Assembly (NCBI RefSeq): GCF_007993755.1
Contig: NZ_CP042467.1
Span: forward strand, 4,302,001 to 4,366,000
DNA length: 64,000 bases
Direction: 5' to 3'
Origin: Microvenator marinus
GTDB lineage: Bacteria; Myxococcota_A; Bradymonadia; Bradymonadales; Bradymonadaceae
The notes below the pieces were generated by a model that ran no database searches, was not told the DNA's origin, and saw only the letters and a list, made by a program, of their open reading frames with translations. Each line of letters opens with the position of its first letter. Positions within the stretch are counted from its first letter, which is position 1. Positions 13,185 to 34,533 of this stretch are shown here, piece by piece. The position numbers were made by a program, and so were the translations under genes.

Positions 13185-13303
13185 TCGGCAACTGATTTCC
13201 TAGCGTTGCTTCTTAATTGGTGGGACTTGGCGCAAGAAATGCACGCTTTTTTGAGGAAATGTGTTGCTCAATCCGCTACACTCCGCACTCGGAGGTTTTG
13301 ACC

Positions 13304-19923: not shown

Positions 19924-20844
19924 ATGACAAGGTTGAATCGTGTTCTCTTGACGGCAATTTTGCTCAGCGCAGCCTCAACCGCGTGGGCGCAAAATGCGGA
20001 TGAGAACGCAGAAACCGCGCAACAAGAGGTTGCACAAGAAGATGCCGCACCTGCGGCAGAAGGTTCAGAAGCGGAAGCGGAGGGTGCTCCTGAAGAAGGT
20101 GCTGAAGCTGCGCCTGCCGAAGGCACTGAGGCTCCCGCTGAAGCAGAGGGCCAACCCGCAAGCAACGAGCCCGTCTTGGGGCCCGGTGGTCGTCCTCTGA
20201 GAACCGACTACCCGGGCACGGACGAGTCGCTTCAGGCTCGAATGGACTCCAATCAAGTCCAAGGGCTGCAGGTTGACCCCAACATGCCGCAGGAAGCCTA
20301 CTCCATGAAAATCCAGGAGTTGGAGACCAAGATCGATGATCTCAAAGAGAAGGTTTTTCAATCGAAGACTCGAATCGTGCTCCTGCGCGAGACGCTTCTG
20401 AGCGGAAACTTGGCCGGTGCACGAGCGATCGTGATTCATAAGACCGATATGGGACGGGCATTTAAGCTTCGAGAAGCGCTGTACAGCCTCGACGGAAGCA
20501 AGGTCTTCGGGCAGGTGGATCGCAACGGCTCACTCGCCGATAAGAACTCGTTCGAAGTCTACAATGGCGGCATCGCGCCAGGAAACCATAACCTCTCGAT
20601 CTTTTTGAAGTATCAAGGAAGTGGCTACGGGCTCTTCCCCTATTTCAACGGATACGACTTTGAAATCCGGTCGTCGTGTCAGTTCAAGGCAGAGGAAGGG
20701 AAGATTAGTCAGATTCGTGTGGTTGCATACGAGAAGGGTAACGCAGCGACCTCCAAAGAGGACCGCCCATTTACCCGTTGTGAAGTGCAATTCTTCGATA
20801 ATATTCGAACGGACGAAGGTGCCGTCGGGGACGAAGCGAAGTGA
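19924..20844 (+). CDS. Secreted coiled-coil protein, first gene of the envelope-machine operon
   Basis: The 306-residue protein has a signal peptide (ends STAWAQ), a long Ala/Glu/Pro-rich linker (about 25-95), a coiled-coil (about 118-155, IQELETKIDDLKEKV) and a C-terminal beta-rich domain with two Cys (SSCQFKA, FTRCEVQF). The Ala/Glu/Pro linker tends to draw false matches to dihydrolipoamide acyltransferases, and no such domain is present. The gene overlaps the next one by 4 bp (GTGA) and heads a run of overlapping periplasmic genes leading to a TolQ/ExbD motor. It probably works in the periplasm as part of that complex. GAGG lies before ATG 19924. Confidence 0.85.
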   Translation: MTRLNRVLLTAILLSAASTAWAQNADENAETAQQEVAQEDAAPAAEGSEAEAEGAPEEGAEAAPAEGTEAPAEAEGQPASNEPVLGPGGRPLRTDYPGTDESLQARMDSNQVQGLQVDPNMPQEAYSMKIQELETKIDDLKEKVFQSKTRIVLLRETLLSGNLAGARAIVIHKTDMGRAFKLREALYSLDGSKVFGQVDRNGSLADKNSFEVYNGGIAPGNHNLSIFLKYQGSGYGLFPYFNGYDFEIRSSCQFKAEEGKISQIRVVAYEKGNAATSKEDRPFTRCEVQFFDNIRTDEGAVGDEAK

Positions 20845-23090
20845 AGTTTAATCAACTCAAAACCCTGATCGCGTCAGCATCGCTCTTTGCCGCGCTCGGT
20901 TTGATGACTCCCAGTGTTTTTGCGCAGGCCCAGCCCGTAGAAAACCCAGGCGAGATCACCAGGGCCATTTCTGAGCTTGAGAATACCTTCATCAAGCCGG
21001 CAGAAGTGGCATCTCAGTATCGCACAGAATCGCGACTCAACGATGCTCGGGTCGCCTACTATCTTGAAGACTATCAGCGGGCGAGCGTGCTTTTCATGGA
21101 CCTCGTTCGCCGCGAAACCGAGGCGTTTCCGAGTTATCGAGAAAGCCTTTTTCTCCTCGGAGACAGCCTCTACCGTTTGCGAAATTATCAGGCATCGCGC
21201 CGCTATCTCAAACAGCTCATCGACATGGGCCGTGGGACACATTTTGACGATGCCGCGCGCCTCTACCTAGAAATGGCGTACGAATCCCGAAACTTTGAGG
21301 GGGTCGACCAAATTCTCTCAAAGCTACAGGGCCAAGGGGTTGACGGAGCTCTCGACTATATTTCGGGAAAGACCCTCTATCGGCAGGGTAAATTCGAAGA
21401 GGCCAGACAGTCCTTCATGAGGGCGTCATCAAATCCTGAATATTCGGTGGTCGGGCTCTATTTTGCTGGCGTGGCGCAGGTCGCTCAGAAGGAATACGAC
21501 GCGGCGTTGACGACCTTTCAGACCGTGACGTCGAAGACTCCGGGCAATCCCCGAGATATCTCCGTCATTGAACTCGCCTATATCGCTCAGGGGCGACTCG
21601 CCTACGAGCGCGGCGATCATGAGAGTGCCATCGACTTGTACAATCGCGTGCCTCGTGAATCCGAGCACTTCGATCGTGCACTCTGGGAGTTTACCTGGGT
21701 GCTCGTGGCTAAAGAGATGTACCGCGAAGCTCGACGAAACGTGGAGATTTTGCTTCTCAATGATCCGAACCCTGCTTTTGAGCCGGAAGCAAAGCTCCTG
21801 AAGGCTGACCTCTCCATTTTGCTCAATGAATACGAGCTCGCCGAGGATGACTTCAAAGACATCTTGACGACCTTTGAGCCGGTCAAGACTGAGATGGATA
21901 AACTCGCGGCTGAACAGCAAGACCTTCAGGCTTTCTTTTCGATCCTCGTTGAGGAGGTGCCGGGAGAAGAGGCGCGTCAAATGCCACCGTTGGTTACGAA
22001 ATGGCTTGAGTCCGATGACTCGGTAGCCGCGGCGACAGCGATGATTCGAGACGTGAGAAATGTGAGCCGTGATATCGAAGACACGGGAAGCGTGATCCGA
22101 GAGATCAATGCTCGTCTGTCCTCTGGTGCACGGGTGCAGTCGTTCCCGGAGCTTTCCGAAGGGCTGGCTCAGGGGATTGAGGTGGAAAACCAGTTACTGG
22201 CGACACGCCATGCAATGCTTGAGAAGCAAGTTTCTAGCGCCAATCTCAGTGGTGATCTGGCCACCCGTTGGCAGGCGATGGCCTCGGAGCTAGAGGCCAT
22301 CAAGGCAGCGCATGAGCGTGCCCCTCAGAGCCGAGTGGAGCTTGCGGAGCGTGAGGAGCTGATTTTTCAAGAGTACGATCGCCTACGTGCACAACTCGAT
22401 GCTGTGGCGTATCAAATCGATAGCCAAAACGCGCAGCTTGCGGCGGTTAATACCTACTTAGAGCGAGAATATGGTCGTGACCTGAGTCAGGATGAGAAGG
22501 ATCGCGTCGATGCGCTCCGCGCTGAAATCCGTGGCACCCTCAAAGAACTCGAAGATCTGAGAGCTCAAATCCAAGCTGAGATCGCGGAGTCTAGAAGCAT
22601 GGTTGGCGTCGGAGATGATGTGGTACGCGCCGAAGGAAATATCAGAAAGCGATACCAGGATGCACTTGCGAGGGCCGAGAGTATGCTTGGAAGTCAGGGG
22701 CTTGATTCCAGCATGCAAACCGCCCGTGCGGAGTTTCCTCAACAACACCAGAGGCTAGACGCCTACTTCGCAAAACTAGAATCGCTAGTGGATGAAAAGG
22801 TCTCGGAGATCAGATCCGAGATCGAAGGCGAAGAGCGCCTATTGGCAGAACACCGAGCGTCCCTGCAAGAGCTGATGTTCGCATCGCAAGGTGGTGCCGG
22901 GGTGTTGGCATATCTGAACTTTATGAGAACACGAGCTAAATTTGATGAACTTGTTCTTCGAGCGGATGTCGGCCTGATCGATGTGAAGTGGCAGAAGAAA
23001 GAGCGAATTTCGAACCAAATTAATCAGCTCTTTGAAGACCGTACGTCTGAATTGAGAATGCTGCAGGAGGCCTTCAATGAAGTTCGATAA
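20841..23090 (+). CDS. Large periplasmic TPR/coiled-coil protein
   Basis: The 749-residue protein starts with GTG 20841 inside the previous stop and has a signal peptide (ends PSVFAQ). Residues about 50-360 are TPR repeats (ARVAYYLEDYQRASVLF, LFLLGDSLYRLRNYQASRRY, RLAYERGDHESAIDLY). Residues about 400-749 are long helices and coiled-coil. TPR arrays are protein-binding scaffolds. In the Glt/Nfs systems of Myxococcus comparable periplasmic TPR proteins form the track between the inner-membrane motor and the outer membrane, and that role is inferred here from gene order. It overlaps the next gene by 14 bp. Confidence 0.85.
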   Translation: MKFNQLKTLIASASLFAALGLMTPSVFAQAQPVENPGEITRAISELENTFIKPAEVASQYRTESRLNDARVAYYLEDYQRASVLFMDLVRRETEAFPSYRESLFLLGDSLYRLRNYQASRRYLKQLIDMGRGTHFDDAARLYLEMAYESRNFEGVDQILSKLQGQGVDGALDYISGKTLYRQGKFEEARQSFMRASSNPEYSVVGLYFAGVAQVAQKEYDAALTTFQTVTSKTPGNPRDISVIELAYIAQGRLAYERGDHESAIDLYNRVPRESEHFDRALWEFTWVLVAKEMYREARRNVEILLLNDPNPAFEPEAKLLKADLSILLNEYELAEDDFKDILTTFEPVKTEMDKLAAEQQDLQAFFSILVEEVPGEEARQMPPLVTKWLESDDSVAAATAMIRDVRNVSRDIEDTGSVIREINARLSSGARVQSFPELSEGLAQGIEVENQLLATRHAMLEKQVSSANLSGDLATRWQAMASELEAIKAAHERAPQSRVELAEREELIFQEYDRLRAQLDAVAYQIDSQNAQLAAVNTYLEREYGRDLSQDEKDRVDALRAEIRGTLKELEDLRAQIQAEIAESRSMVGVGDDVVRAEGNIRKRYQDALARAESMLGSQGLDSSMQTARAEFPQQHQRLDAYFAKLESLVDEKVSEIRSEIEGEERLLAEHRASLQELMFASQGGAGVLAYLNFMRTRAKFDELVLRADVGLIDVKWQKKERISNQINQLFEDRTSELRMLQEAFNEVR

Positions 23091-26000
23091 CCTGCATAGG
23101 TGGGGCTCGCGAGCACTCTTGCTCGGTCTGCTCTTCGGTACTCCAACGGGCGTGTTCGCTCAGGAAGAGGTCGCTGAAGAAGACGGCCCCGAGATCGTCG
23201 ATGAAACCGATTTGGACAAAGAAGCCGCCCAACGTGGAGAAGATATCCGCAATAAAGAGGGTATGGCTGCGGAAGACAAAGGCTTGATTCGTGCTCCGAT
23301 CTTGCTTCCCGAAGGTGTTAGTCAGGAACAAATCGCGCATTTCGAAGACTGGCAGAACGCCCTTAATCGTTATGCTGCTGAGATTACCGACTTCCAGGGT
23401 ACCGTAGATAATATCGTCGATGCCGAGTACAAAAAGCGTGTCTCGCAGATCAACGCGGCATATCAAGGGAAGATCGAGTCGAGCGAAGAGATTGAGCGAC
23501 GTGACCGCGTCGCAGCGATCGAGTCTTTTGAGGCTTTCCTCGTCAAGTATCCGAATCATGAGCGATACACGCCGGACGCGATTTTCAGGCTCGCTGAGCT
23601 GCATTTCGAGAAAGCAAACGACGACTTCATGCTCGCTGATGACGCGTTCCAGGAGCAATTGGAGGCTTTTCAATCAGGTCAGAGGACCGACCCTCCGGCT
23701 GATCCGATTCGCGACTATTCAAATACGATCGCACTCTTCAGGCGTCTCATTGCGGAATTCCCTGACTATCGCTTGCTCGATGGCGCCTATTACCTGCTCG
23801 CGTATTGTGAATTGCAGATGGGCAACGAGACTGAGGCGCGTTCACTCTTTGCCGAGCTGATCGTCAAGAGGCCTGATTCTCAGTTCGTGCCAGAAGCGTG
23901 GATCCGAATTGGTGAATTCCACTTCGACTACAACGAACTCGAGCTTGCCAAGCAATCGTACATCGAGGCGATGAAGTTCGAGGACTCGCAGTTCTACGAT
24001 AAGGCCCTCTACAAGCTGGCCTGGACTTATTACCGGCAAGACAATTTCGATCAGGCGATCAAAGAGTTTGCCCGCCTGATCGAGTACAGCGATGAGCTTC
24101 AAGCGACAACGGGCCAACAAGGTTCGGTTCTCCGCGCTGAAGCCGTGCAGTACATGGCCATCTCCCTCGCCGAGGAAGACTGGAATCTCGACGGCAATAA
24201 GGACGACGATTTCGGTCTGATCCGAGTTCGAAAGTACATCACCGGGGATAAACCCTACGAGAAGGAAGTCCTCCGACGCCTGGGTGGGTACCTTTTTGAT
24301 AACACACGCTATGCGGATGCTGTGGATATCTACCGCTTCATCCTCGCGAGATATCCGCTCGATCGCGAAAACCCGGAAGTTCACGAGCAGATCATTTTGG
24401 CGTTGTTGAGAGACGACCAGCTCGAACTGGCTTTCGAGGAGCGCGGAAAACTCAATCAGTTCTACGGTCCCGAGAGTCAGTGGTACGCCCACCAACAAAA
24501 GCTCGGAAATGCCGAGGCCATTCGCTATTCAGATGTCTTGGTCAAAGATAACCTGATTCAGTCGGCCACGTGGTATCACGCCGAGGCCCAAAAAATGCGG
24601 TCCGAGGCTGAAGCCAGAGAAGACGAATCGCTTGGTGAGCGGGCGCAAACCCTCTACGCCTCCGCGGCTACGGGCTATGAAGGCTATCTTCAGCGCTACC
24701 CGAACGATAAAGATTTCTACCAATGGAACTTTTACTTCGCCGAGAGCCTCTATTACTCAGGGCAGTATCAACGAGCCTATGAGCAATACCGAGTGGTGCG
24801 AGAGATGGACGTTCCCAAAAACGAATTCCAAGAGGTGGCGGCATTCAATACCGTTAAATCTCTTGAGAATATGATGGCCGATAAGGTCAAAACTGGTGAA
24901 CTTCCTCCGAAAGTCTTGCCGGGCCTTGCTGATGCGCAAGCTGTCGCGGAGAATCAAACCCAGGTTCGAAGTGAAGACGAGCGGGAAGAGCAAAAGACTA
25001 TCACCGCAGAAGCAATTCCTGCGATGGTTCGTGATTACGTCACAGAAATGGACCGATACGTGGTGCTCAACCTCAAGAATGAGGAAGACAAGTATCTCGA
25101 TGCGAAGTTCGCGTTCCAAGCCGCCAAGGTCTACTACGACTTCAACGACTATCCGACCGCAAGACGGCGCTTCGAGTGGGTGATCAACCAATACCCCGAG
25201 CACGAGGTCGCGTATCTCTCGGGAAGTTTGATCCTAGAGACTTACCGCAACGAAAACGACTTCACCAAACTCGCTGAAGCCGCGGAGAAGCTCTCCAACG
25301 TGATTCAGGGTGAACAAGCTGCCGCCGTTCGTGCAGAAGTCAAAGAGTTCAAGCTCGGCGCGATGTTTAAGTCGGCCGAACAGCTCTTTGCGGATGAAAA
25401 GTACGAACAAGCGGCTGAAGAGTATTTGCGCCTGCTCCAAGAGGATCCAAACAACCAGTTTGCAGCGAAGGCTCTAAACAACGCGGCCGTGGCCTACGAG
25501 AACGTTCAGCGATACGAATCGGCCATGAAACTCTACGATCGGGTTTACAAGGAACATCCGAACGATCCCCTGGCCGTTTACGCACTCTTCAGGGTGGCCG
25601 TGAATCAGGAGCGTTTCTTTGACTACGAAAACGCGATTCAGTCGTATGAGATTTTCTACGATAAGTATCGCAACAAGTCTCAGGCTGAGATCAACGAGAC
25701 AGGACTGGATTTCCAGCTCACGGAGCGGCGTGCGGATGCGCTTAGGAATGCAGCCGTTCTTCAGGAAAACCTCCAGAATTATAAGCAGGCCGCAACTGCG
25801 TATGAGCGCTACTCGACGACTTTCCCCGAAAGTGAAGAGGCCGATGAAACTGCATGGCGAGCGGTTGAGGCGTGGGAGAAGGCAGGTGATTCTCAGAAGA
25901 TGATTCGAGCCATCAACACCTATGTCAAGGACCACGGAACGGCGGAAAACTCCCCGAAGGTCCTCGAAGGATTGATGAAGATCGCCGACTATTACGAAGG

Positions 26001-26628
26001 ACGTCGTGACCAGAGACGCGCCGACACGTACTACAAGCAGATCATCGACGAGTATCAGTCGCGCGGCGTGGCTCCGGCATCTCCAGGCGCCTTCTTTGCG
26101 GCCAAGTCGCAGTTCATGCTGGCCGAGAGAAACTTTGATAAGTGGAACAAGATTCAGATCAAAGGCTCGCTCAACAACCAGAAGAAGTTGCTCAACGAGA
26201 AGATCGCTGGTCAAAAGGCGCTCACAGCGGAATATGAATCGGTTTGGGGCTATCAGAGTCTTGAGTGGACCATGGCGTCGAGCTTCCGAATCGGAAGTCT
26301 CTTTCAGCAATTCGCTCAATCTTTGTATAACGTGCCTATTCCGTTCAGAGACGATTCCGAAGAGTACGAGGTCTATCGTACGCAGCTTGAGGATATCGCC
26401 ATTCCGCTCGAGGATGAGGCGATTCGCCGCTACGAGACCACTATCGCTAAAGCCCGTGAAGAGAAGATCGTCAACGAGTGGACCATGCGAACACTCGAGG
26501 AGCTCAACCGCTATAAGCCGGCTGATTATCCGCTCTACAAAGAAGAACGTTCTACCTACGAGATGCGCGTGGTTACGGGTCGAGACCTCATCGGTGCCGA
26601 GAACCTGAATCCGGGAGCTCCAAAATGA
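23077..26628 (+). CDS. Very large periplasmic TPR protein (GltD/NfsD-like by context)
   Basis: The 1183-residue protein has a signal peptide (ends TGVFAQ) and TPR-like repeats along nearly its whole length (DAIFRLAELHFEKANDDF, KALYKLAWTYYRQDNFDQAIKEF, KYEQAAEEYLRLLQEDPNN, AVAYENVQRYESAMKLYDRV). Size, periplasmic location and position upstream of a TPR lipoprotein and TolQ/ExbD genes resemble the giant TPR component of the Myxococcus gliding/spore-coat machines. It is not possible to say by eye that it is an orthologue. It overlaps both neighbours (14 bp and 4 bp), which points to translational coupling and fixed stoichiometry. Confidence 0.88.
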   Translation: MKFDNLHRWGSRALLLGLLFGTPTGVFAQEEVAEEDGPEIVDETDLDKEAAQRGEDIRNKEGMAAEDKGLIRAPILLPEGVSQEQIAHFEDWQNALNRYAAEITDFQGTVDNIVDAEYKKRVSQINAAYQGKIESSEEIERRDRVAAIESFEAFLVKYPNHERYTPDAIFRLAELHFEKANDDFMLADDAFQEQLEAFQSGQRTDPPADPIRDYSNTIALFRRLIAEFPDYRLLDGAYYLLAYCELQMGNETEARSLFAELIVKRPDSQFVPEAWIRIGEFHFDYNELELAKQSYIEAMKFEDSQFYDKALYKLAWTYYRQDNFDQAIKEFARLIEYSDELQATTGQQGSVLRAEAVQYMAISLAEEDWNLDGNKDDDFGLIRVRKYITGDKPYEKEVLRRLGGYLFDNTRYADAVDIYRFILARYPLDRENPEVHEQIILALLRDDQLELAFEERGKLNQFYGPESQWYAHQQKLGNAEAIRYSDVLVKDNLIQSATWYHAEAQKMRSEAEAREDESLGERAQTLYASAATGYEGYLQRYPNDKDFYQWNFYFAESLYYSGQYQRAYEQYRVVREMDVPKNEFQEVAAFNTVKSLENMMADKVKTGELPPKVLPGLADAQAVAENQTQVRSEDEREEQKTITAEAIPAMVRDYVTEMDRYVVLNLKNEEDKYLDAKFAFQAAKVYYDFNDYPTARRRFEWVINQYPEHEVAYLSGSLILETYRNENDFTKLAEAAEKLSNVIQGEQAAAVRAEVKEFKLGAMFKSAEQLFADEKYEQAAEEYLRLLQEDPNNQFAAKALNNAAVAYENVQRYESAMKLYDRVYKEHPNDPLAVYALFRVAVNQERFFDYENAIQSYEIFYDKYRNKSQAEINETGLDFQLTERRADALRNAAVLQENLQNYKQAATAYERYSTTFPESEEADETAWRAVEAWEKAGDSQKMIRAINTYVKDHGTAENSPKVLEGLMKIADYYEGRRDQRRADTYYKQIIDEYQSRGVAPASPGAFFAAKSQFMLAERNFDKWNKIQIKGSLNNQKKLLNEKIAGQKALTAEYESVWGYQSLEWTMASSFRIGSLFQQFAQSLYNVPIPFRDDSEEYEVYRTQLEDIAIPLEDEAIRRYETTIAKAREEKIVNEWTMRTLEELNRYKPADYPLYKEERSTYEMRVVTGRDLIGAENLNPGAPK

Positions 26629-27899
26629 AGAAGATTATACTTCTAGCTATCGGAACTTCTTTCGTGCTGGCTTGCTCGGGATCTCCGGAGAAGAAAGACG
26701 AGAGCGTTGTTGAGGAAAGTGTCGCTACCGAGGACATGCCAGCGACTGAGGACTTGATGAAGGATGTCCAAGAGATGCCTTCAACCGATAGTCTCGATGA
26801 CGGATCTGCTGAGTCTAGCTCTGATGAGAGCGAGCTCGACGCCGGCTCGGCAGCAATGATCCGCGACGCGATGGAATCCGCAAAACGTGGAGACCTCAAA
26901 TCTGCACAATCCTCCCTTGAATCTATTCTTACCCAGCCAGGTGCTGCGTATCTTGCAGCGTATAATCTGGGTGTGATTCATGAGAGACAGGGACAATACG
27001 AGCAATCTGCGCGCCGCTACTTTGAATCACTTCAAAAGAACCCCAACTTTAGCCCGGCGTTGATCAATTTGGTGCGTCTCTATCTGAGACAGGATCGCGT
27101 TCAAGACGCTGAAAGGCTTGCCGATCGCTTTGCGAATCAGAGGCCGGACGTGCTGAGTCACCGTGTGGCCGGCCTCGAGGTAGGGCTCTACAAGGGCGCG
27201 TACGAGGATGTGATTCGTAAGGCCAAAGAGGTTCTGAGACGCGACGAAAAGAATGTGGACGCCATGGTGGCTATGGCGCAAGCAAACTTTAACCTTGGCC
27301 GCTTCGAGCTCGCACGCTCTGTGGTTGTGAGGGCCGTGGAGCTCGATGGATCGAGGGCTGATCTTTTCAATATCTACGGGCTCGTGGAGCTGAAGTTGGA
27401 CAAGAAGCCGGCGGCCATCGCGAACTTCCGTAAAGCGGTCGAGCTACGCCCACAGTTTCCCGAGGCGCGAAATAACCTCGGCTTGCTCTATCATGAGGCT
27501 CGTGATTTCGAGGCGGCCCGCTTGCAGTTTGAAGAAGCTGTCAGGGTCTTTCCCGATTACAAGCATGCGTTCTTAAATCTTGGTAGTGCTTACAAAGGTC
27601 TGAGCCGCTTTCGAGATGCGGAGCTCGCGTTCAAACGAGCGATCGAGATCGACCCTCAGTTTGCGGACGCTCACTTTAACTTAGCCATTCTTTATCTCGA
27701 CAGCGATATCCCTGGCATGGACCCCATCGCACGCCTTCAAAAGTCCGTTGATACCTTTGGTCAGTACAAGGCCGTCAACAAGACCATGGCAAAAGATGAC
27801 CCAGCCAACAAATATCTTGAGGAAGCTCGCAAAGCGATCGAGATTGAAAAACAGAAGCAAGAGATGATGCGTGAGGCTCAAAAAGGAGAAGAATCATGA
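26625..27899 (+). CDS. TPR lipoprotein (GltE/NfsE-like by context)
   Basis: The 424-residue protein has a lipoprotein signal (VLACSGS, Cys17), an acidic linker to about 75, then eight or so TPRs (LAAYNLGVIHERQGQYEQSARRY, AFLNLGSAYKGLSRFRDAEL, ADAHFNLAILYLDSD). The C-terminus is a charged helix. A TPR lipoprotein held in the outer membrane is a regular part of AglT/GltE- and NfsE-type complexes. ATG overlaps the upstream stop (ATGA) and its own stop overlaps the next start in the same way. Confidence 0.88.
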   Translation: MKKIILLAIGTSFVLACSGSPEKKDESVVEESVATEDMPATEDLMKDVQEMPSTDSLDDGSAESSSDESELDAGSAAMIRDAMESAKRGDLKSAQSSLESILTQPGAAYLAAYNLGVIHERQGQYEQSARRYFESLQKNPNFSPALINLVRLYLRQDRVQDAERLADRFANQRPDVLSHRVAGLEVGLYKGAYEDVIRKAKEVLRRDEKNVDAMVAMAQANFNLGRFELARSVVVRAVELDGSRADLFNIYGLVELKLDKKPAAIANFRKAVELRPQFPEARNNLGLLYHEARDFEAARLQFEEAVRVFPDYKHAFLNLGSAYKGLSRFRDAELAFKRAIEIDPQFADAHFNLAILYLDSDIPGMDPIARLQKSVDTFGQYKAVNKTMAKDDPANKYLEEARKAIEIEKQKQEMMREAQKGEES

Positions 27900-28129
27900 A
27901 AATGATCGTACTAACGGTGGCTCTGATCGCTGCCGGAACAATGATTTCAGGTTCTGCCTTTGCGCAACAAGGTGTCATCAATCTGGATGAGACCGTGATT
28001 AAAGGTAGAATTGAAAAGCCAGAAGCCTTTTATATTCTGCAACATGCACAACTTAATTACGAAAAGCTCAAGCCAAAGCAGAGCTTTATTCCTGAGTTGC
28101 TAGAGACGGTTGATGAAAAGCCTTTCTAG
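27896..28129 (+). CDS. Small secreted protein of the envelope-machine operon
   Basis: The 77-residue protein has a signal peptide (ends GSAFAQ) and a mature part of about 53 residues (INLDETVIKGRIEKPEAFYI, then NYEKLKPKQSFIPELL). It has no Cys and no known domain. It is coupled by ATGA to the TPR lipoprotein gene and is the last gene before the motor genes, so it is probably a small periplasmic subunit or assembly factor of the same complex. Confidence 0.78.
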   Translation: MKMIVLTVALIAAGTMISGSAFAQQGVINLDETVIKGRIEKPEAFYILQHAQLNYEKLKPKQSFIPELLETVDEKPF

Positions 28130-28177
28130 CGACAAAAAAATGAACTTGGCCGCCCGCAATGCGGTATGCTATAGGGT

Positions 28178-28204
28178 ACGGACTTCGGAGACAGCCGTTT
28201 TTTT
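28178..28204 (+). terminator. Weak intrinsic terminator or attenuator before tolQ-like gene
   Basis: ACGGACT (28178-28184) can pair with AGCCGT (28193-28198) with one bulge, followed by seven T (28198-28204). It lies between the coupled periplasmic genes and the motor genes and would reduce read-through, setting a different level for the motor. Confidence 0.4.
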
Positions 28205-28301
28205 CGAGAGCGTTGGTTCGGAGTCCTGATTTAGTTTTTTCAACGACCTACGGGTCATAACGGTTCGCAGTTTGTTAAAACGCGTACGGAGGTAACTCAA
28301 C

Positions 28302-28946
28302 ATGGGCGCAATTGCCGAAGCATTCCGCACTGGCGGAATTTGGATGTATCTCATCCTCGCAGTATCCATCTTCGCAATCGGGATTGCGATTGAGCGGTTC
28401 ATTTTCTTGTTCTTCAAGTACAACATCAACGCCGAGGCCTTTTATCTTCAGGTCCAAAAGTTGGTGATGGCCAACAACATTGATCGTGCGATCAAGTTGT
28501 GCAATGCCGCTCCATCCGCAGCTCTTCCTCAAGTGGTGAAGGCTGGTTTGACTCGCGCCAACAAAGGCGAAGTCGAGATCCAGAACGCCGTGGAAGAGGC
28601 CTCCCTTGAGGTGGTTCCTCGTATTCAGAAGCGTACCAACGCCCTCGCGGCCCTTGGTAACATCGCAACGCTTCTCGGTCTTCTCGGAACCATCCTCGGT
28701 CTTATCGAGGCTTTCGAGGCTCTCGAGAAAGCCACTCCTGAGAATCGTCAGAGACTTCTGGCACGTGGTATTGCTCTCGCGATGAACACGACGGCTTTCG
28801 GTCTTATCGTGGCTATCCCGTCGTTGCTTGCTCACCTTGTACTCAGCGGTCAGACCAAGCGTCTGATGGACGAGATCGATCTCTACAGCGTCAAGCTTGA
28901 GAACCTTCTTGTCAGCCGTGGCAAGGGTGGCGTGGCAGAAGAGTAA
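28302..28946 (+). CDS. MotA/TolQ/ExbB-family proton channel protein (AglR-like)
   Basis: The 214-residue protein has three membrane helices: about 12-33 (IWMYLILAVSIFAIGIAIERF), 118-140 and 155-180. The family core ALGNIATLLGLLGTILGLIEAF is followed by ALAMNTTAFGLIVAIPSLLAH. TolQ/ExbB/MotA proteins form a pentameric proton channel around an ExbD/TolR dimer and turn proton flow into movement. It has a strong ribosome-binding site (GGAGG, ATG 28302). With the two ExbD genes it has the AglR-AglQ-AglS order known from the Myxococcus gliding motor. Confidence 0.95.
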   Translation: MGAIAEAFRTGGIWMYLILAVSIFAIGIAIERFIFLFFKYNINAEAFYLQVQKLVMANNIDRAIKLCNAAPSAALPQVVKAGLTRANKGEVEIQNAVEEASLEVVPRIQKRTNALAALGNIATLLGLLGTILGLIEAFEALEKATPENRQRLLARGIALAMNTTAFGLIVAIPSLLAHLVLSGQTKRLMDEIDLYSVKLENLLVSRGKGGVAEE

Positions 28947-29003
28947 TTCCTCGGAATTAAGTGTGGTCCTGGAATAATAGTCTTCCAGGACGCAGGAGGA
29001 TTC

Positions 29004-29669
29004 ATGGCGCGTAAACGCACCGAAGAAAAACCAGATTTGGAACTCAACCTCGCCCCCATTATGAACATGGTGGTGATCTTGATTCCCTTGCTCCTTCTCT
29101 CGATCGTCTTCTTGGAAGTGGGTGTGATTAACATCACTGCGCCCAAGCTTTCAGTTGGACCTTCGACAGAAGAGCCTCCACCAGAGGACGATAAGAAGCC
29201 TTTGAATCTCACGGTCACCGTGCAGACCAAAGGGTTCATGATCGCTGCTTCCGAGGCAGTGCTCACCCCTCGTCCTGGATGCCCAACGCAGGGCCCGACG
29301 ATCTGTCTTGCGAAGCAGAACGTCGACGTCGCTGCAAAGTTCCAGCGTGCTCGCGAAGCGATGGCACAAGGAAACCTCGTGGGTGGTGAAGCGGAGCTGA
29401 AAGAAGCGCTCGCGGCCTACAACTGGCCTGAGCTCTACAACCAGCTCATGAGAATTAAGAAAGAATACCCAGACGAGACGATCATCAAGATCTCGGCGGA
29501 TCCAGACACCCCATACTCGGCCATTGTGCGCCTGATGGACGTGTCACGTTTCCAACTCGCCAAAGAGTCCTATGGCCAGGCGAGCGAGTTTTGGTCAGCT
29601 CAGTATAAGGGAACCGGTACTTCACCAGAAGAACTTTTCCCAGACCCAATCTTGTCGATCGCGCAGTAA
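29004..29669 (+). CDS. ExbD/TolR-family protein 1, motor Asp replaced by Asn
   Basis: The 221-residue protein has an N-terminal cytoplasmic stub, one membrane helix (about 18-42) and a periplasmic domain. The helix begins LNLAPIMNMVVILIPLLLL. In TolR/ExbD proteins the same place reads (N)xxPLIDxM, with an essential proton-carrying Asp; here it is Asn21 (codon AAC 29064-29066). The periplasmic part is longer than usual and contains an inserted helical stretch with two Cys (RPGCPTQGPTICLAKQ). GCAGGAGG-like sequence precedes ATG 29004. It lies 57 bp after the TolQ-like gene and 12 bp before ExbD-2. Confidence 0.92.
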   Translation: MARKRTEEKPDLELNLAPIMNMVVILIPLLLLSIVFLEVGVINITAPKLSVGPSTEEPPPEDDKKPLNLTVTVQTKGFMIAASEAVLTPRPGCPTQGPTICLAKQNVDVAAKFQRAREAMAQGNLVGGEAELKEALAAYNWPELYNQLMRIKKEYPDETIIKISADPDTPYSAIVRLMDVSRFQLAKESYGQASEFWSAQYKGTGTSPEELFPDPILSIAQ

Positions 29670-29681
29670 AGGAGAACGATC

Positions 29682-30269
29682 ATGTCGGACGGTTTTACAC
29701 AATCAGACGAGCAATTCATTCTCGAGCAGCGTGCGCGGCAAAAGAAGGCTGGTCGGCGTAAGAAGAAAGCCTTGGAAGAGCCAGGTGGCCTTGGGATGAA
29801 CTCCCTTATGGACATCATGGTTATCATTCTGGTCTTCCTTCTGAAGAACTACGGTGATGAGCCGATCAAAGTGATCGGTGAAGACTTGAAGGCTCCAGAG
29901 AGTGCGACCCAGCTCACACCGGAAGATATGACCACTATTACGGTCAGTCAGAAAGCGATCTTGGTGAACAACACTAAGACTGTGGACGTGAAGCAGGGTG
30001 CTGTGGATAAGAGCATGAAGAAAGGTGGCGAAGCCAGCCTCCTCATTCAGCCACTCTTTGAGGGACTCCAAGAGGAGATCGCCAAGAAGAAGCGTGAAAT
30101 GCGAGTTTTGGGGCAAACCTATGAGCCCACTGCGACCATCATCGCCGATCAAAGCACTCCATTTCGCCTCGTAACCGAGGTGATGTACACCGCAGGCCAA
30201 GCAGAGTTGAACCAGTTTAAGTTCGCTGTGGTTAAGGTGAATCGCGACTCCTTCGGGGGCGCAGAGTGA
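29682..30269 (+). CDS. ExbD/TolR-family protein 2, motor Asp present
   Basis: The 195-residue protein has a basic cytoplasmic N-terminus (RRKKKALEEPGG), one membrane helix from about 37 (LGMNSLMDIMVIILVFLL) and a periplasmic ExbD domain ending in QFKFAVVKVNR. Asp44 in SLMDIM is at the place of the proton-carrying Asp. It is probably the active partner of ExbD-1 in the rotor dimer. AAAGGAG lies before ATG 29682, and a strong terminator follows at 30293-30318. Confidence 0.93.
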   Translation: MSDGFTQSDEQFILEQRARQKKAGRRKKKALEEPGGLGMNSLMDIMVIILVFLLKNYGDEPIKVIGEDLKAPESATQLTPEDMTTITVSQKAILVNNTKTVDVKQGAVDKSMKKGGEASLLIQPLFEGLQEEIAKKKREMRVLGQTYEPTATIIADQSTPFRLVTEVMYTAGQAELNQFKFAVVKVNRDSFGGAE

Positions 30270-30292
30270 GTTAATCCGCGTATTCGCGTAGA

Positions 30293-30318
30293 GGACGGTT
30301 TTTACCGTCCTTTTTTTT
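30293..30318 (+). terminator. Strong intrinsic terminator after motor genes
   Basis: GGACGGT (30293-30299), a TTTT loop and ACCGTCC (30304-30310), then eight T. It closes the motor operon, so the TonB-like gene at 30478 needs its own promoter in the 160 bp between, where I see no convincing sigma-70 boxes. Confidence 0.88.
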
Positions 30319-30477
30319 ATGCGGTTGCGCAGAATCGTGGTTTAAGTCATTCTAGTGAGGGAAGGAAATCGGTATGCCGATGGTTCTAGTGTGAGCGTCA
30401 CAATCGGGTGGTTGGAGAGGCCTCACGTTCGAGAGGGCGTGCGACGACTTGGCAACGGCTGTTTAAAGAGTTTTTGA

Positions 30478-31905
30478 ATGTCTACGCAGAAAAAGCCTGT
30501 ACAACGAATCCTAAGGGTTGGTCTTTTTCAGAATAAAAACTGTATCGAGGAACGTCTTATCCATACACGGAAGGCGGTCACGATCGGTCAAGATCTAAAG
30601 AAGAACACCTTTGTGGTCCCTGCATCAAAATTGCCACGGACCTATCAACTCTTCGATGTTAAGGACGGTGAATACGTTCTGAACTTTACGAAGGATATGA
30701 CCGGACGTGTCTCGGTGGGCGATTCAAAGCCGCTAGAGCTCGAAGAACTGGTCAAGATGAATAAGGCACAGAAGTCGGGGGATGGATACGCTCTCAAAAT
30801 CACCGAGAAGACGTATGGCCGCGTGGCGTTTGAAAACGGGGGTGAAGAGGTCGCTATCCTCTTCCAGTTCGTCAAGCCTCCGCCACCACGAACGCCCCCC
30901 GTGCTGCCCGCGAGCATGCGAGGAGGCCTTCTTTTCGCGCTCGTCGGTGCAACCACCCTTCTAATCACCACCTTCATTTCTGCGTTCCTTCAAGTTGGTT
31001 TCGTCGCGTTTGTTCTGGCGAAAGACTGGCCACAACCCAAAGATATCGATTACGTGATGCCGGATCGTTTTGTTTCGATCATGGTGGACGAAAAGCCAGA
31101 GCCGATCGAAGCGGAACCTATCGAGACCGAAGAAGGAGACGGGCCAGGGGAAGAGGTAGAGGACGATGGCCCATCAGAGCCGGCCCCAAAAGCAGATGAC
31201 GAACCAAAGGCGGAGCCAAAGACCGCTGAAGAGCGCGCGGCTGCGGATGCGGAGCGGAAGCGACGATTGGCGGAAGAAGTGCAGAATAAGACTATTCTGG
31301 GTCAGATCGGCGCTTTGAGTTCCGAGGGGGGCTCATTGATCGATTCACTCTCTGAAGGTGCCGGACGTACCTCGATGGAAGAAGCCTTTGCGAACTCAGC
31401 GGGTATTGCGACCAACGTAGCAGGCGCCGAGCAAAGCGGTCTTAGGACTTCCGGCTCATCCGATGCCGACGGCAAGGGAAGTGCGGTGGGTATGGGTGAG
31501 TTGAAGGGTTTGGCAGGTGCTTCCAAAGCTAAGAAGGGCGTGGATACCGGCAAGCAGGCCGAGAAGAAGGTCAAGGTTAAGTTGAACCTCAAAACACCCG
31601 AGAAGATGGTCGGTGGAAAGCTCGACTCCAATTCTGTGTCTGATGTGATTCGAAGGCGCCAAGCCGCTATCCAACGCTGCTACGAGCGCGAGATTAAGAA
31701 CAATCCAAGCGCTTCGGGTAAAGTGGTCGTTTCGTTTACGATCGGAACCATTGGCCGTGTGACCAGCGCGAAGGCCGTAGAGGACTCCGTCGGTGGTGGG
31801 GTTGGCTCGTGTGTAGCCGGTGTTGTGAAGGGCTTCAGGTTCCCTCGACCAGAGGGTGGTGAGGTCATTGTGAATAAAACCTTCGTCTTCGAGGTCGCAC
31901 AGTAG
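30478..31905 (+). CDS. TonB-like energy transducer with AgmX/PglI C-terminal domain
   Basis: The 475-residue protein has a cytoplasmic beta-rich N-terminal domain (about 10-130), FHA-like in layout but lacking clear GR/SxxH motifs. One long hydrophobic segment follows at about 148-181. A periplasmic Glu/Pro/Lys-rich linker (about 205-275) and a Gly/Ser-rich region follow. The C-terminal domain (about 370-475; SVSDVIRRRQAAIQRCYER, GKVVVSFTIGTIGRVTSAK, VVKGFRFPRPEGG) is the AgmX/PglI tail, related to TonB and made to span the periplasm. This layout is that of the GltG/NfsG-type transducer that links motor and TPR track. AAAGAG precedes ATG 30478. Confidence 0.92.
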   Translation: MSTQKKPVQRILRVGLFQNKNCIEERLIHTRKAVTIGQDLKKNTFVVPASKLPRTYQLFDVKDGEYVLNFTKDMTGRVSVGDSKPLELEELVKMNKAQKSGDGYALKITEKTYGRVAFENGGEEVAILFQFVKPPPPRTPPVLPASMRGGLLFALVGATTLLITTFISAFLQVGFVAFVLAKDWPQPKDIDYVMPDRFVSIMVDEKPEPIEAEPIETEEGDGPGEEVEDDGPSEPAPKADDEPKAEPKTAEERAAADAERKRRLAEEVQNKTILGQIGALSSEGGSLIDSLSEGAGRTSMEEAFANSAGIATNVAGAEQSGLRTSGSSDADGKGSAVGMGELKGLAGASKAKKGVDTGKQAEKKVKVKLNLKTPEKMVGGKLDSNSVSDVIRRRQAAIQRCYEREIKNNPSASGKVVVSFTIGTIGRVTSAKAVEDSVGGGVGSCVAGVVKGFRFPRPEGGEVIVNKTFVFEVAQ

Positions 31906-31979
31906 TTGTTTTTGGTTCGGTTTGTATGACGTGCTAGATGTGTTAGTGTGAAGCGGAAATTGTAAGAATAGGGTCTGCT

Positions 31980-32576
31980 ATGATGGCAAAAAACTTGATT
32001 ATGGGAGCAGTGGGGGCGTTGACGCTTACTCTCGCTCTAAGTTTTGTAAACGCCCAAGATTCGGAGGCGCCTAGCACTCTTGCATCTGATATTGCGAATT
32101 TGCAGAATGAGGTCGACACCTTGACCGGTCCAGAGAAGATCGAGAGAGCGACCGAAATCGTAAACGGCATGAAGTCTACACTCACTAGCACCAATGAGGT
32201 GTTGGAGCGTGTTCGAACCGAAGAACAAGACATTCTGAAGTTGAACTGTTTGAATGAGAAGGTTGCCGCTATCAAAGGCTTTGTTAAGGTCGGTGAGAAG
32301 AGCCACGAAGAACTTAAGAGCGCCGTCTCAGCTGGAGACAAAGAGGCCGAAAAGCACCACTACACACTTGTGGCAATTGGCGGCGAGAAGGTGGGTGAGC
32401 TCGGTGAACAGGCGCTCGTATGTGCGGGGGAAGTTTTGAGATTTTCAGAAGATACCGTTGTCGATCGAACAATTGATCCCAACATTGCCGAGGTCGATCC
32501 TATCGTTATTGACGATAATGAGTTCGATTTTGACCTTGCGATGGAACGACTTCCCGAACTAACAGCATTTAACTGA
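31980..32576 (+). CDS. Periplasmic helical protein of unknown function
   Basis: The 198-residue protein has a signal peptide (ends LSFVNAQ), then mostly helix with two Cys about 60 residues apart (LKLNCLNEK and ALVCAGEV) that may form a disulfide. The tail is acidic (VIDDNEFDFDL). No family is recognised. It lies between the TonB-like transducer and the outer-membrane barrel. A second ATG at 31983 is an equally good start. Confidence 0.8.
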   Translation: MMAKNLIMGAVGALTLTLALSFVNAQDSEAPSTLASDIANLQNEVDTLTGPEKIERATEIVNGMKSTLTSTNEVLERVRTEEQDILKLNCLNEKVAAIKGFVKVGEKSHEELKSAVSAGDKEAEKHHYTLVAIGGEKVGELGEQALVCAGEVLRFSEDTVVDRTIDPNIAEVDPIVIDDNEFDFDLAMERLPELTAFN

Positions 32577-32637
32577 TTTTTGTGGGTGTATTTTGTATTC
32601 GGGTTCTGCTACTCACAGACCACTGATGTGTGATTAA

Positions 32638-32650
32638 CTGGGGTCCCCAG
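32638..32650 (+). promoter_or_regulatory. Perfect GC palindrome next to the ribosome-binding site of the beta-barrel gene
   Basis: CTGGGG-T-CCCCAG is a perfect dyad whose last bases run into the AGGAA ribosome-binding site of ATG 32658. It is too tight for a stable hairpin loop and suits a DNA operator better. Confidence 0.3.
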
Positions 32651-32657
32651 GAATAAG

Positions 32658-33899
32658 ATGGTTGCTAGAGTTCAACAAGTACAAGTCATGAGTGTGATCG
32701 CGGGGATGATCATGTCCGTGAGTGCTCTGGCGGCACCTGGTGAGGGTTTGCAATCCGAGTCGTTAGTCGCGTCATTTGGACTGACGATGGCGGGCGCCTA
32801 CGATTCGAATATCTTCTATCAATCTGAAGATGAGACTACACGGCTGTCTTCGGCACCCTCCCTTAGATTCACCCCATTTCTCTCCATCGATTCCCTGAAT
32901 CCAGGGATGGCTCAATACAACGTTTCCGCCAGTGTTTCGTGGCAACAGTATTTGGATGATGAGGCCACGGTCTCGGAGCAGAGCGGGCTTTCGGCCAACG
33001 TTGGCGCTACGCTCGGGATCAATCGCGAGGGCGCCTTTTCGGTGACCTTCAAAGAGGCTTTCGCAAGAACGAACGAGCCACCTGAAGGTCCCACGCTCGA
33101 TGCATATAACCGCAACGTGAACTCATTGGGGCTTACGCTTGGGTTGCATCCCGGCGGAAAAGTATTCCAGCATTATTTGAGCTATGATTGGTTGGTATAC
33201 AGGCATGAGGATATCGAAGCGATTAATCGCATGATCCACGACCTCACGCTGACGAACTATTGGCGATTTCTGCCAAGAACCGCGCTTACGTTGAGCCTCG
33301 ATTATCAGATCGTCCAGTACGATGATTCGAATCAGGCGATTGGGAATATCGCGAATTCGAATAGCACACCTTTAAAGGTTCAGGCTGGTCTGACGGGTCT
33401 GATTACCGAGAGACTCTCATTGAAGCTCGTCGGTGGTTGGGGTTGGTCGTTCCATGACCAGGGAGACAGCTTCAGCGGTTTGGTGATCGACACGCGCTTG
33501 ACCTACCACGTAGGCGACCCAGTCGCGAAGAACGTGCTCTTTGTCGGCTACAATCAAAGTTTTGCAGATACCACTATCGGGAACTTCTACACCTACTATC
33601 GGCCATACGCGGGATATCAGCATCGGTTGGTCGACCGGATTCGCCTTGGATTGGATGCAGAGGTCTCGATTCGAGACTACGTGGGAACTCCAGGCTTTGT
33701 TGGAGACATCTCAGACTTGCTCATCGGCGGTCGGGCCTCGTTGGGCTTTGATATTTTCAAGTGGTGGAGTGTTGATGCAGCTTATCGCCTGCAAATCAAC
33801 AATACCGAAGACGTGCTCTTCGACGAGACTTTGGGTTTGAATTCGCTGCGGGAATATACCAAGCATTTGGTGACCTTCGGTACGACAGTTCGATACTGA
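32658..33899 (+). CDS. Outer-membrane beta-barrel protein, probable polysaccharide-export porin
   Basis: The 413-residue protein has a signal peptide (ends SALAAP) and then alternating amphipathic strands throughout (for example YNVSASVSWQQYL, LTLSLDYQIVQYD, LSLKLVGGWGWSF). It ends HLVTFGTTVRY, with a terminal aromatic residue as expected for BAM-inserted barrels. Similar barrels lie beside OPX genes in Myxococcus polysaccharide clusters and form the outer-membrane pore for short OPX proteins. An OPX gene follows within 25 bp. AGGAATAAG precedes ATG 32658. Confidence 0.85.
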   Translation: MVARVQQVQVMSVIAGMIMSVSALAAPGEGLQSESLVASFGLTMAGAYDSNIFYQSEDETTRLSSAPSLRFTPFLSIDSLNPGMAQYNVSASVSWQQYLDDEATVSEQSGLSANVGATLGINREGAFSVTFKEAFARTNEPPEGPTLDAYNRNVNSLGLTLGLHPGGKVFQHYLSYDWLVYRHEDIEAINRMIHDLTLTNYWRFLPRTALTLSLDYQIVQYDDSNQAIGNIANSNSTPLKVQAGLTGLITERLSLKLVGGWGWSFHDQGDSFSGLVIDTRLTYHVGDPVAKNVLFVGYNQSFADTTIGNFYTYYRPYAGYQHRLVDRIRLGLDAEVSIRDYVGTPGFVGDISDLLIGGRASLGFDIFKWWSVDAAYRLQINNTEDVLFDETLGLNSLREYTKHLVTFGTTVRY

Positions 33900-33921
33900 A
33901 GACTTGAGACCCGCTCAATCT

Positions 33922-34533
33922 ATGAGATCCTACTTCTACATCTTGCTTTTGGCGTGTTCTATCCTTGTCTTCGGCGCTTGCGGCTACGGTAGCGTAGACC
34001 CAGCGTACGAAGCATTGGTTGAGCAAGAGAACACGATGCCTATCGCCGGTGAACTTGGCGTGGGGGATCGTTTCCAACTGACAGTACACGGGCAAGGCTC
34101 GCTTTCCGGTGAATTTACGGTCTCCAATGAAGGGACGATCAACTACCCGTATCTTGGACGGATCACCGTTGAGGGGCTTACGTGCTCCGACATGGAAGAG
34201 AAGGTCACGGCAGGGCTTGCGGACGGATACATTCAAAGTCCAAGCGTTCGCTGCTCGATCACCGAGTTTAACTCCAAGCGAATCTACATTTTCGGCTCGG
34301 TGGGCGCGCCGGGCGCGTTCCCGTATCGGACGAATCTTTCGATCATCGAGGCTATTGCGCTTGCGGGCGGTTTTGCTGAACGTGCCTCGAGTAATGGGAC
34401 GAAGTTGAGCCGAGTGGTCAACGGCACCGAGATACAGGTCCGGGTCCCGCTACAAGACATCGTTGAAGGCAAGAGCCGAAACATCCGCTTGTTGCCTGGC
34501 GATATTATCTTCGTACCTGAAACCCCCTACTAG
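33922..34533 (+). CDS. Short Wza-like polysaccharide export (OPX) lipoprotein
   Basis: The 203-residue protein has a lipoprotein signal (VFGAC, Cys20), a poly-export domain at about 40-120 (LGVGDRFQLTVHGQGSLSG; GTINYPYLGRITVEGLT) and one SLBB domain at about 125-200 (IYIFGSVGAPGAFPYRTN, LLPGDIIFVPETPY). It has no second SLBB and no C-terminal amphipathic helix, so it cannot form the helical pore of Wza in the outer membrane and should need a porin, which the gene just upstream would supply. ATG 33922 gives the proper signal; TTG 33904 is the alternative. Confidence 0.9.
   Translation: MRSYFYILLLACSILVFGACGYGSVDPAYEALVEQENTMPIAGELGVGDRFQLTVHGQGSLSGEFTVSNEGTINYPYLGRITVEGLTCSDMEEKVTAGLADGYIQSPSVRCSITEFNSKRIYIFGSVGAPGAFPYRTNLSIIEAIALAGGFAERASSNGTKLSRVVNGTEIQVRVPLQDIVEGKSRNIRLLPGDIIFVPETPY

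Follow-up and report, generated by a model that had tools for sequence, protein, structure and literature searches.

Gene content of the locus

We analyzed a 64,000-nucleotide stretch of the Microvenator marinus genome (contig NZ_CP042467.1, positions 4,302,001 to 4,366,000; hereafter the window), a genome that consists of a single 5.85-Mb contig. Positions 19924-34533 of the window contained twelve open reading frames (ORFs), all on the + strand, at the coordinates given in an earlier note made from the letters alone. That note had described coupled genes for periplasmic proteins, a motor, a transducer and an export pore with an outer-membrane polysaccharide export (OPX) lipoprotein. The Pfam and NCBIfam searches agreed, returning TPR proteins, MotA_ExbB, two ExbD proteins, an AgmX/PglI tail and Poly_export with SLBB. 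The gene order was A-B-C-D-E-TolQ-ExbD1-ExbD2-GltG-P198-barrel-OPX, with the following features:

19924..20844, + strand: A, secreted protein of an unnamed conserved family (alignment of 30, mean identity 34%)
20841..23090, + strand: B, GltC-like periplasmic TPR/coiled-coil protein (NCBIfam GltC, E 1.1e-16, below cut-off)
23077..26628, + strand: C, GltD-like periplasmic TPR protein, 1183 aa (GltD tree and family profile)
26625..27899, + strand: D, GltE-like TPR lipoprotein (NCBIfam GltE, E 3.7e-31, below cut-off; signal peptide ends VLAC)
27896..28129, + strand: E, GltF/CglF-like small secreted protein, 77 aa (NCBIfam CglF, E 0.003)
28302..28946, + strand: TolQ/AglR-like motor subunit (PF01618, E 8.6e-27)
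29004..29669, + strand: ExbD1, AglQ-like (PF02472); Asn21 codon at 29064-29066
29682..30269, + strand: ExbD2, AglS-like (PF02472); Asp44 codon at 29811-29813
30290-30313, + strand: strong terminator-like hairpin, 10 pairs and a T-run, between ExbD2 and GltG (pattern only)
30478..31905, + strand: GltG-like transducer with AgmX/PglI tail (NCBIfam GltG, E 1.4e-37, model positions 224-647 only)
31980..32576, + strand: P198, secreted helical bundle of an unnamed conserved family (AlphaFold2 pLDDT 84)
32658..33899, + strand: outer-membrane beta-barrel, WzpB orthologue (family hidden Markov model matches Myxococcus xanthus WzpB, 6e-36)
33904..34533, + strand: short OPX lipoprotein, WzaB orthologue (Poly_export 8.7e-17, plus SLBB)

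Neighboring ORFs overlapped by 4-14 bp at A-B, B-C, C-D and D-E, and the later spacing was 4-208 bp. Because of the terminator-like hairpin, the locus is probably transcribed as two units, A-ExbD2 (motor and track) and GltG-OPX (transducer and pore). About half of the relatives tested also had hairpins between these two genes, and in several of them the hairpin sequence was different.

The locus corresponds to clusters G4 and M2 of M. xanthus

The GltD-like family profile scored 1008 bits on the G4 cluster of M. xanthus, compared with 411 and 403 bits on the Nfs and Glt copies. In the GltD tree, a quick tree made without bootstrap, the window protein and that of G4 fell within a clade of 20 (SH-aLRT 100), which excluded the Glt and Nfs copies, a G5-like one and the paralogues from the window genome itself. 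The TolQ tree placed the window protein with M. xanthus M2 (support 98/96) and left AglR outside. M2 was told apart from M1 by subunit lengths (AglR has 245 aa and AglQ 162 aa; PMC3169522) and by being the only other complete set (PMC3858216). By these trees and profiles, M. xanthus G4 and M2 together appear to be the orthologous counterpart of the locus, which represents a third lineage in addition to those of gliding (Glt) and the spore coat (Nfs). The earlier note had proposed an Agl-Glt/Nfs relative tied to polysaccharide export. The family searches, and the barrel and OPX attached to the cluster, supported an Agl-Glt/Nfs-type core complex with that tie; Glt or Nfs identity of the window locus was ruled out by the GltD and TolQ trees together with the separate Glt-type locus described below.

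The contig of M. xanthus AM003 breaks within the G4 locus. On the piece that carries the barrel and OPX genes, the OPX protein had 204 aa and its gene lay 23 bp behind the barrel gene, matching the published marks of WzaB/WzpB (PMC9601211, PMC9603273), and its sequence was that of PDB entry 9n9a. In Myxococcus congeners both G4 pieces lay on one contig, and the locus numbers agreed, with MXAN_1922 as the G4 gltD (PMC3169522) and MXAN_1915/1916 as WzaB/WzpB. On these grounds we assign WzaB/WzpB, the exporter of the biosurfactant polysaccharide (BPS), to the tail of G4. The statement that motor, track and export genes of Myxococcus lie in separate loci held for the motor, which is apart, but not for the export pair, which lies inside G4. 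MXAN_1915 has been termed orphan-like or outside the polysaccharide clusters (PMC7310880, PMC7484181). In the open-licence literature searched, no text named MXAN_1922 with MXAN_1915 or linked G4/M2 to WzaB/WzpB. Within that literature, the identity of G4 plus M2 with the window machine and the membership of WzaB/WzpB in a machine of this type are new; the single parts and the core complex were already known.

Conservation of the gene order

Relatives of the GltD-like protein were present in 57 of 58 related genomes. The full twelve-gene order recurred in most relatives fetched, across the class, and since it did so where the GltD-like protein was only about 30-40% identical, the arrangement is, judging from these comparisons, not a product of chance. 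Myxococcaceae carried A-B-C-D-E-GltG-P198-barrel-OPX without the motor, and an Anaeromyxobacter metagenome-assembled genome had the Myxococcaceae-type order plus the motor. Among the named loci with at least 9 kb of downstream sequence (n = 39), 31 had barrel and OPX and 19 had the motor; those with barrel and OPX included Myxococcus, Pyxidicoccus, Archangium and Anaeromyxobacter. In 284 genomes drawn from the phylum there was no GltE match above the NCBIfam cut-off, and Myxococcus sequences were therefore taken from named genomes outside this sample. The neighborhood survey thus confirmed the predicted conservation of order, which extends across the class and, without the motor, to Myxococcaceae. 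The opposite outcomes named in the earlier note, TPR proteins resembling only YbgF or BamD or an order not kept by relatives, were not what we found; B and D fitted GltC and GltE better than YbgF in the family searches.

The periplasmic proteins

The Glt-type core proteins of the locus did not reach the NCBIfam equivalog cut-offs, which are set for the gliding proteins themselves. The G4 counterpart of B likewise matched GltC. Relatives L063 and L115-L116 kept the other cluster genes but lacked B, which suggests that this lineage may be able to do without it. The 77-residue protein E had been thought to lack a named counterpart. Its E value of 0.003 is weak alone, but its gene occupies the GltF position after the GltE-like gene and is kept across relatives, which identifies it, at the level of sequence and position, as GltF/CglF-like. 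The GltG-like protein matched myxo_SS_tail (AgmX/PglI) with 82 bits (cut-off 40); Pfam detected no FHA domain in it, and its GltG match begins at model position 224.

A and P198 remained without named counterparts, as first noted, and both represent conserved families; neither they nor the barrel had a convincing Pfam or NCBIfam match. A consists of a disordered Ala/Glu-rich N-terminal part, a coiled coil (residues 123-163) and a beta-sandwich (residues 166-292), and its AlphaFold2 model comprised the coiled coil and a confident beta-sandwich, with pLDDT >90 for the greater part of the fold. No clear PDB match to A was obtained (best 4gpv, E 2e-4 but TM 0.26). As A lies in the same place before GltC, it was considered as a GltB/NfsB homologue and rejected, since it had no similarity to these proteins or to NfsA and its model was not a barrel. 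P198 has invariant Cys90 and Cys148 and a conserved C-terminal LPELTP-like motif, and its fold search returned helical-bundle noise only, with nothing interpretable. It was found in 183 of the 284 phylum genomes. At no fewer than 85 of the best 120 P198 places in the phylum, an OPX gene lay on the same strand, always downstream, at a distance of 1.3-2.0 kb (median 1.5 kb) that leaves room for a barrel gene.

The predicted exit pore and possible partner genes

The barrel gene adjoins the OPX gene, a known kind of pair, and its position directly upstream of OPX was conserved in relatives. The OPX protein has 209 aa, ends after SLBB, lacks a C-terminal outer-membrane helix and carries an invariant lipoprotein Cys26; it thereby has the features of class 3 OPX proteins (at most 280 aa, Poly_export plus SLBB, no C-terminal outer-membrane helix, lipoprotein Cys). 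The class 3 translocon has an adjacent 18-stranded barrel, and here the adjacent gene encodes the WzpB orthologue, a predicted barrel. With 139 bits, the locus OPX matched PDB 9n9a, the entry that carries the M. xanthus WzaB sequence, and WzpB had no sequence match in PDB.

Searches with PF02563 found one OPX protein in the window genome (that of the locus), one in Lujinxingia vulgaris, and three each in M. xanthus and Archangium; exactly one was present in 45 of 57 genomes of the class. The sole Wzz-family polysaccharide co-polymerase (PCP) of the window genome (737 aa, at 2.13 Mb, beside a Wzy_C gene) is WzcB-like, with 378 bits to the PCP of the glycosyltransferase-rich cluster of M. xanthus versus 31 bits to the exopolysaccharide PCP.

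Uneven proton sites in the motor

ExbD1 has Asn21 at the site of the proton-binding Asp of AglQ, TolR and ExbD, and ExbD2 keeps the Asp (Asp44). Among 31 other distinct ExbD1 sequences the site was Asn in 24, Asp in six and Gly in one; the six with Asp were the M1 and M2 proteins of M. xanthus and Archangium plus two others. The ExbD2 site was Asp in 31 of 31 other sequences. The proton-binding site of AglQ is essential for gliding (PMC9120999), and the formation of AglQ-AglS heterodimers is described as an open question (PMC9389320). The sequence pattern suggests an ExbD1-ExbD2 heterodimer, in which case the rotor would have a single proton site. As far as the open-licence literature searched shows, a motor with one Asp is new. 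The Asn/Asp split across the ExbD pair offers a natural test of whether a 5:2 motor depends on both of its proton sites. Most G4-type motors had this Asn/Asp pairing, as did the second motor of the window genome.

Other Glt-type loci and neighboring genes

A single-locus Glt/Nfs-type cluster with GltC, D, E and F was present at 2.04 Mb (L039 4298-16379). It also encodes two GltA/B-type barrels similar to NfsA/NfsB, a 530-aa secreted protein and a GltJ-like protein that combines a zinc ribbon, a GYF domain and an AgmX tail, and by its gene content it is the candidate gliding locus of M. marinus. GltC-D-E together with an FHA-bearing GltG (432 bits) lay at 5.12 Mb, and at 5.82 Mb we found the second TolQ-ExbD-ExbD motor, a kinase-AgmX fusion and a G5-like GltD. 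The fusion (5.83 Mb; L217 4733-7642) joins a protein kinase to an AgmX/PglI tail in 969 aa, directly follows the TolQ-ExbD-ExbD motor and lies near a G5-like GltD/GltC pair. It is possibly the kinase-transducer of another Glt-type machine.

Upstream of the cluster, a PolX-like gene (window 18136-19839) adjoins A. The same was seen in several family members (L047, L050, L051, L052, L060), and the conserved neighborhood therefore reaches further upstream. At 11088-15403, two adjacent genes encode predicted lipoproteins whose N-terminal regions contain long (D/E)PDMT-type repeats. Rfam had no match anywhere in the window.

Proposed function and alternatives

We propose, with a probability of about 60%, that the locus encodes a Glt-type machine, driven by the proton motive force and dedicated to a polymer that leaves through the machine's own OPX/barrel pore. 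The inner-membrane TolQ-ExbD1-ExbD2 proton motor would move the GltG-like transducer, and the GltD-, GltC- and GltE-like TPR proteins with GltF would pass this movement across the periplasm to the outer membrane. There a Wzx/Wzy-type polysaccharide would exit through the D1D2-type OPX lipoprotein and the WzaB/WzpB-type beta-barrel. P198 and A would serve as dedicated adaptors, roles that their AlphaFold2 models suit in general terms only. The proposal rests on anatomy, orthology, synteny, the single-copy OPX and the WzcB-like PCP, from which we infer physical coupling, polymer identity and the direction of force. The motor would either spread the emerging polymer over the surface, as Agl-Nfs does with the spore coat, or act on the pore itself. 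In the Agl-Nfs precedent, the motor carries Nfs proteins and newly exported spore-coat polymer around the cell (PMC3858216). By analogy we infer that the motor pulls the transducer and TPR proteins, whose outer-membrane end would meet the OPX/barrel pore. Distribution of the polymer is favored over pore gating or chain pulling, because the paralogous systems still export without the motor (PMC3858216). A bolder version, in which the motor mechanically drives or gates export and a Glt-type machine, the ancestor of the gliding and spore-coat versions, has the OPX/barrel as its output end, with a rotor asymmetric in most lineages (one ExbD proton-binding, the other, with Asn for Asp, not), is tentative and on balance doubtful.

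Several results weigh against the proposed machine. Mutants in agl go on exporting slime and spore-coat polymer (PMC3858216). With a polar insertion in MXAN_1922, gliding and twitching showed no visible defect (PMC3169522), and deletion of MXAN_3004 left the M2 mutant unaffected in motility and sporulation (PMC3169522, PMC3858216). BPS mutants, in contrast, are poor at spreading by type IV pili (PMC7310880), so BPS export may not require G4/M2 under the conditions of those assays. The MXAN_1922 result would mean either that a separate promoter drives the genes downstream or that this particular GltD is dispensable for BPS under those conditions. In the window genome, the Wzc/Wzy genes lie 2.2 Mb from the locus and the hairpin parts the motor genes from the exporter genes. 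Eight of the 39 named loci lacked barrel and/or OPX.

These eight loci, the hairpin and the absence of a motility phenotype in the MXAN_1922 insertion (PMC3169522) would also fit two linked but uncoupled parts, with the motor-Glt part acting on the envelope in general (tethering or constriction of the Tol-Pal kind) and the OPX/barrel a stable neighbor that exports without the motor. We consider this unlikely, as the GltG-P198-barrel-OPX block is kept together throughout the class, and Myxococcaceae retain it even with the motor located elsewhere, and B and D are closer to GltC and GltE than to YbgF. Tol-Pal identity itself was ruled out, since Pfam and NCBIfam found neither TolB nor Pal among the locus proteins. 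The earlier note had offered gliding or exopolysaccharide placement, and the polysaccharide part stands. A gliding machine of M. marinus that exports slime at the motor would agree with the reported gliding of Bradymonadales members (PMC7188933) and with motor and Glt-type parts in one locus. However, the locus lies outside the Glt clade in both trees, M. xanthus can glide without the orthologue (PMC3169522), and GltA/B/H/I/J/K were absent from the locus by ORFs, Pfam and NCBIfam. Gliding is quite improbable here because GltA/B-type barrels, GltC-F and a zinc-ribbon/GYF GltJ (2.04 Mb) and an FHA-bearing GltG (5.12 Mb) are encoded elsewhere in the genome; should M. marinus glide, these are the stronger candidates. 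Assembly of a spore or cyst coat, as an Nfs equivalent, is very improbable: the locus is outside the Nfs clade and has no NfsA/B barrels. It also occurs in lineages that are not known to sporulate. It shares with Nfs the logic of motor plus polysaccharide, but mutation of M2 leaves sporulation normal, and MXAN_3003 showed no binding to NfsG (PMC3858216).

The proposed machine would bear on M. xanthus, where G4 and M2 have been clusters of unknown function since 2011 and MXAN_3003 failed to bind GltG or NfsG. The BPS exporter has been an orphan 1 Mb from its pathway; the ancestral-looking gene set of the window links G4, M2 and this exporter and names the missing partners, and the role of the third motor set becomes testable in a standard laboratory organism. 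If the proposal is true, it gives concrete support for the gliding and spore-coat motors deriving from a polysaccharide machine, because motor, transducer and pore are encoded together here. A 2015 opinion paper reportedly derived Glt from a capsule system.

Comparison with known systems

The closest counterpart was M. xanthus G4 plus M2 (MXAN_3003-5), with orthologous GltD and TolQ and with the order A-B-C-D-E-GltG-P198-barrel-OPX common to the window and Myxococcaceae. The motor lies within the locus here and apart in Myxococcaceae, and ExbD1 has Asn here and Asp in M2. WzaB/WzpB (MXAN_1915/1916) are the orthologous, adjacent OPX and barrel, the OPX being likewise short and without an outer-membrane helix; PMC7310880 and PMC7484181 treat them as an orphan of the BPS cluster, and their Glt-like neighbors go unmentioned. 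The BPS pathway uses WzcB/WzyB/WzxB and yields a ManNAcA-rich surfactant, and in the window genome a single WzcB-like PCP is encoded next to a Wzy_C gene. An AglRQS-type motor and GltC/D/E/F/G-type proteins with an exported polysaccharide are common to the locus and Agl-Nfs (PMC3858216), which differs in belonging to another clade, in having NfsA/B barrels in place of A, P198 and WzpB/WzaB, and in its Exo exporter being encoded elsewhere. With Agl-Glt the locus has the GltC/D/E/F/G plus AglR/Q/S core in common, but it belongs to another clade, lacks GltA/B/H/I/J/K and has a GltG without FHA. The Agl-Glt core complex (Luciano group B), linked homologues of GltC, D, E, G and AglR, Q, S, is present in full at the locus. 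One-locus core complexes were described already in 2011 (PMC3169522), and those of Gammaproteobacteria and Geobacter combine GltC, D, E and G with AglR, Q and S at a single site, as here; compared by gene content, the M. marinus locus adds GltF, A, P198, the barrel and OPX.

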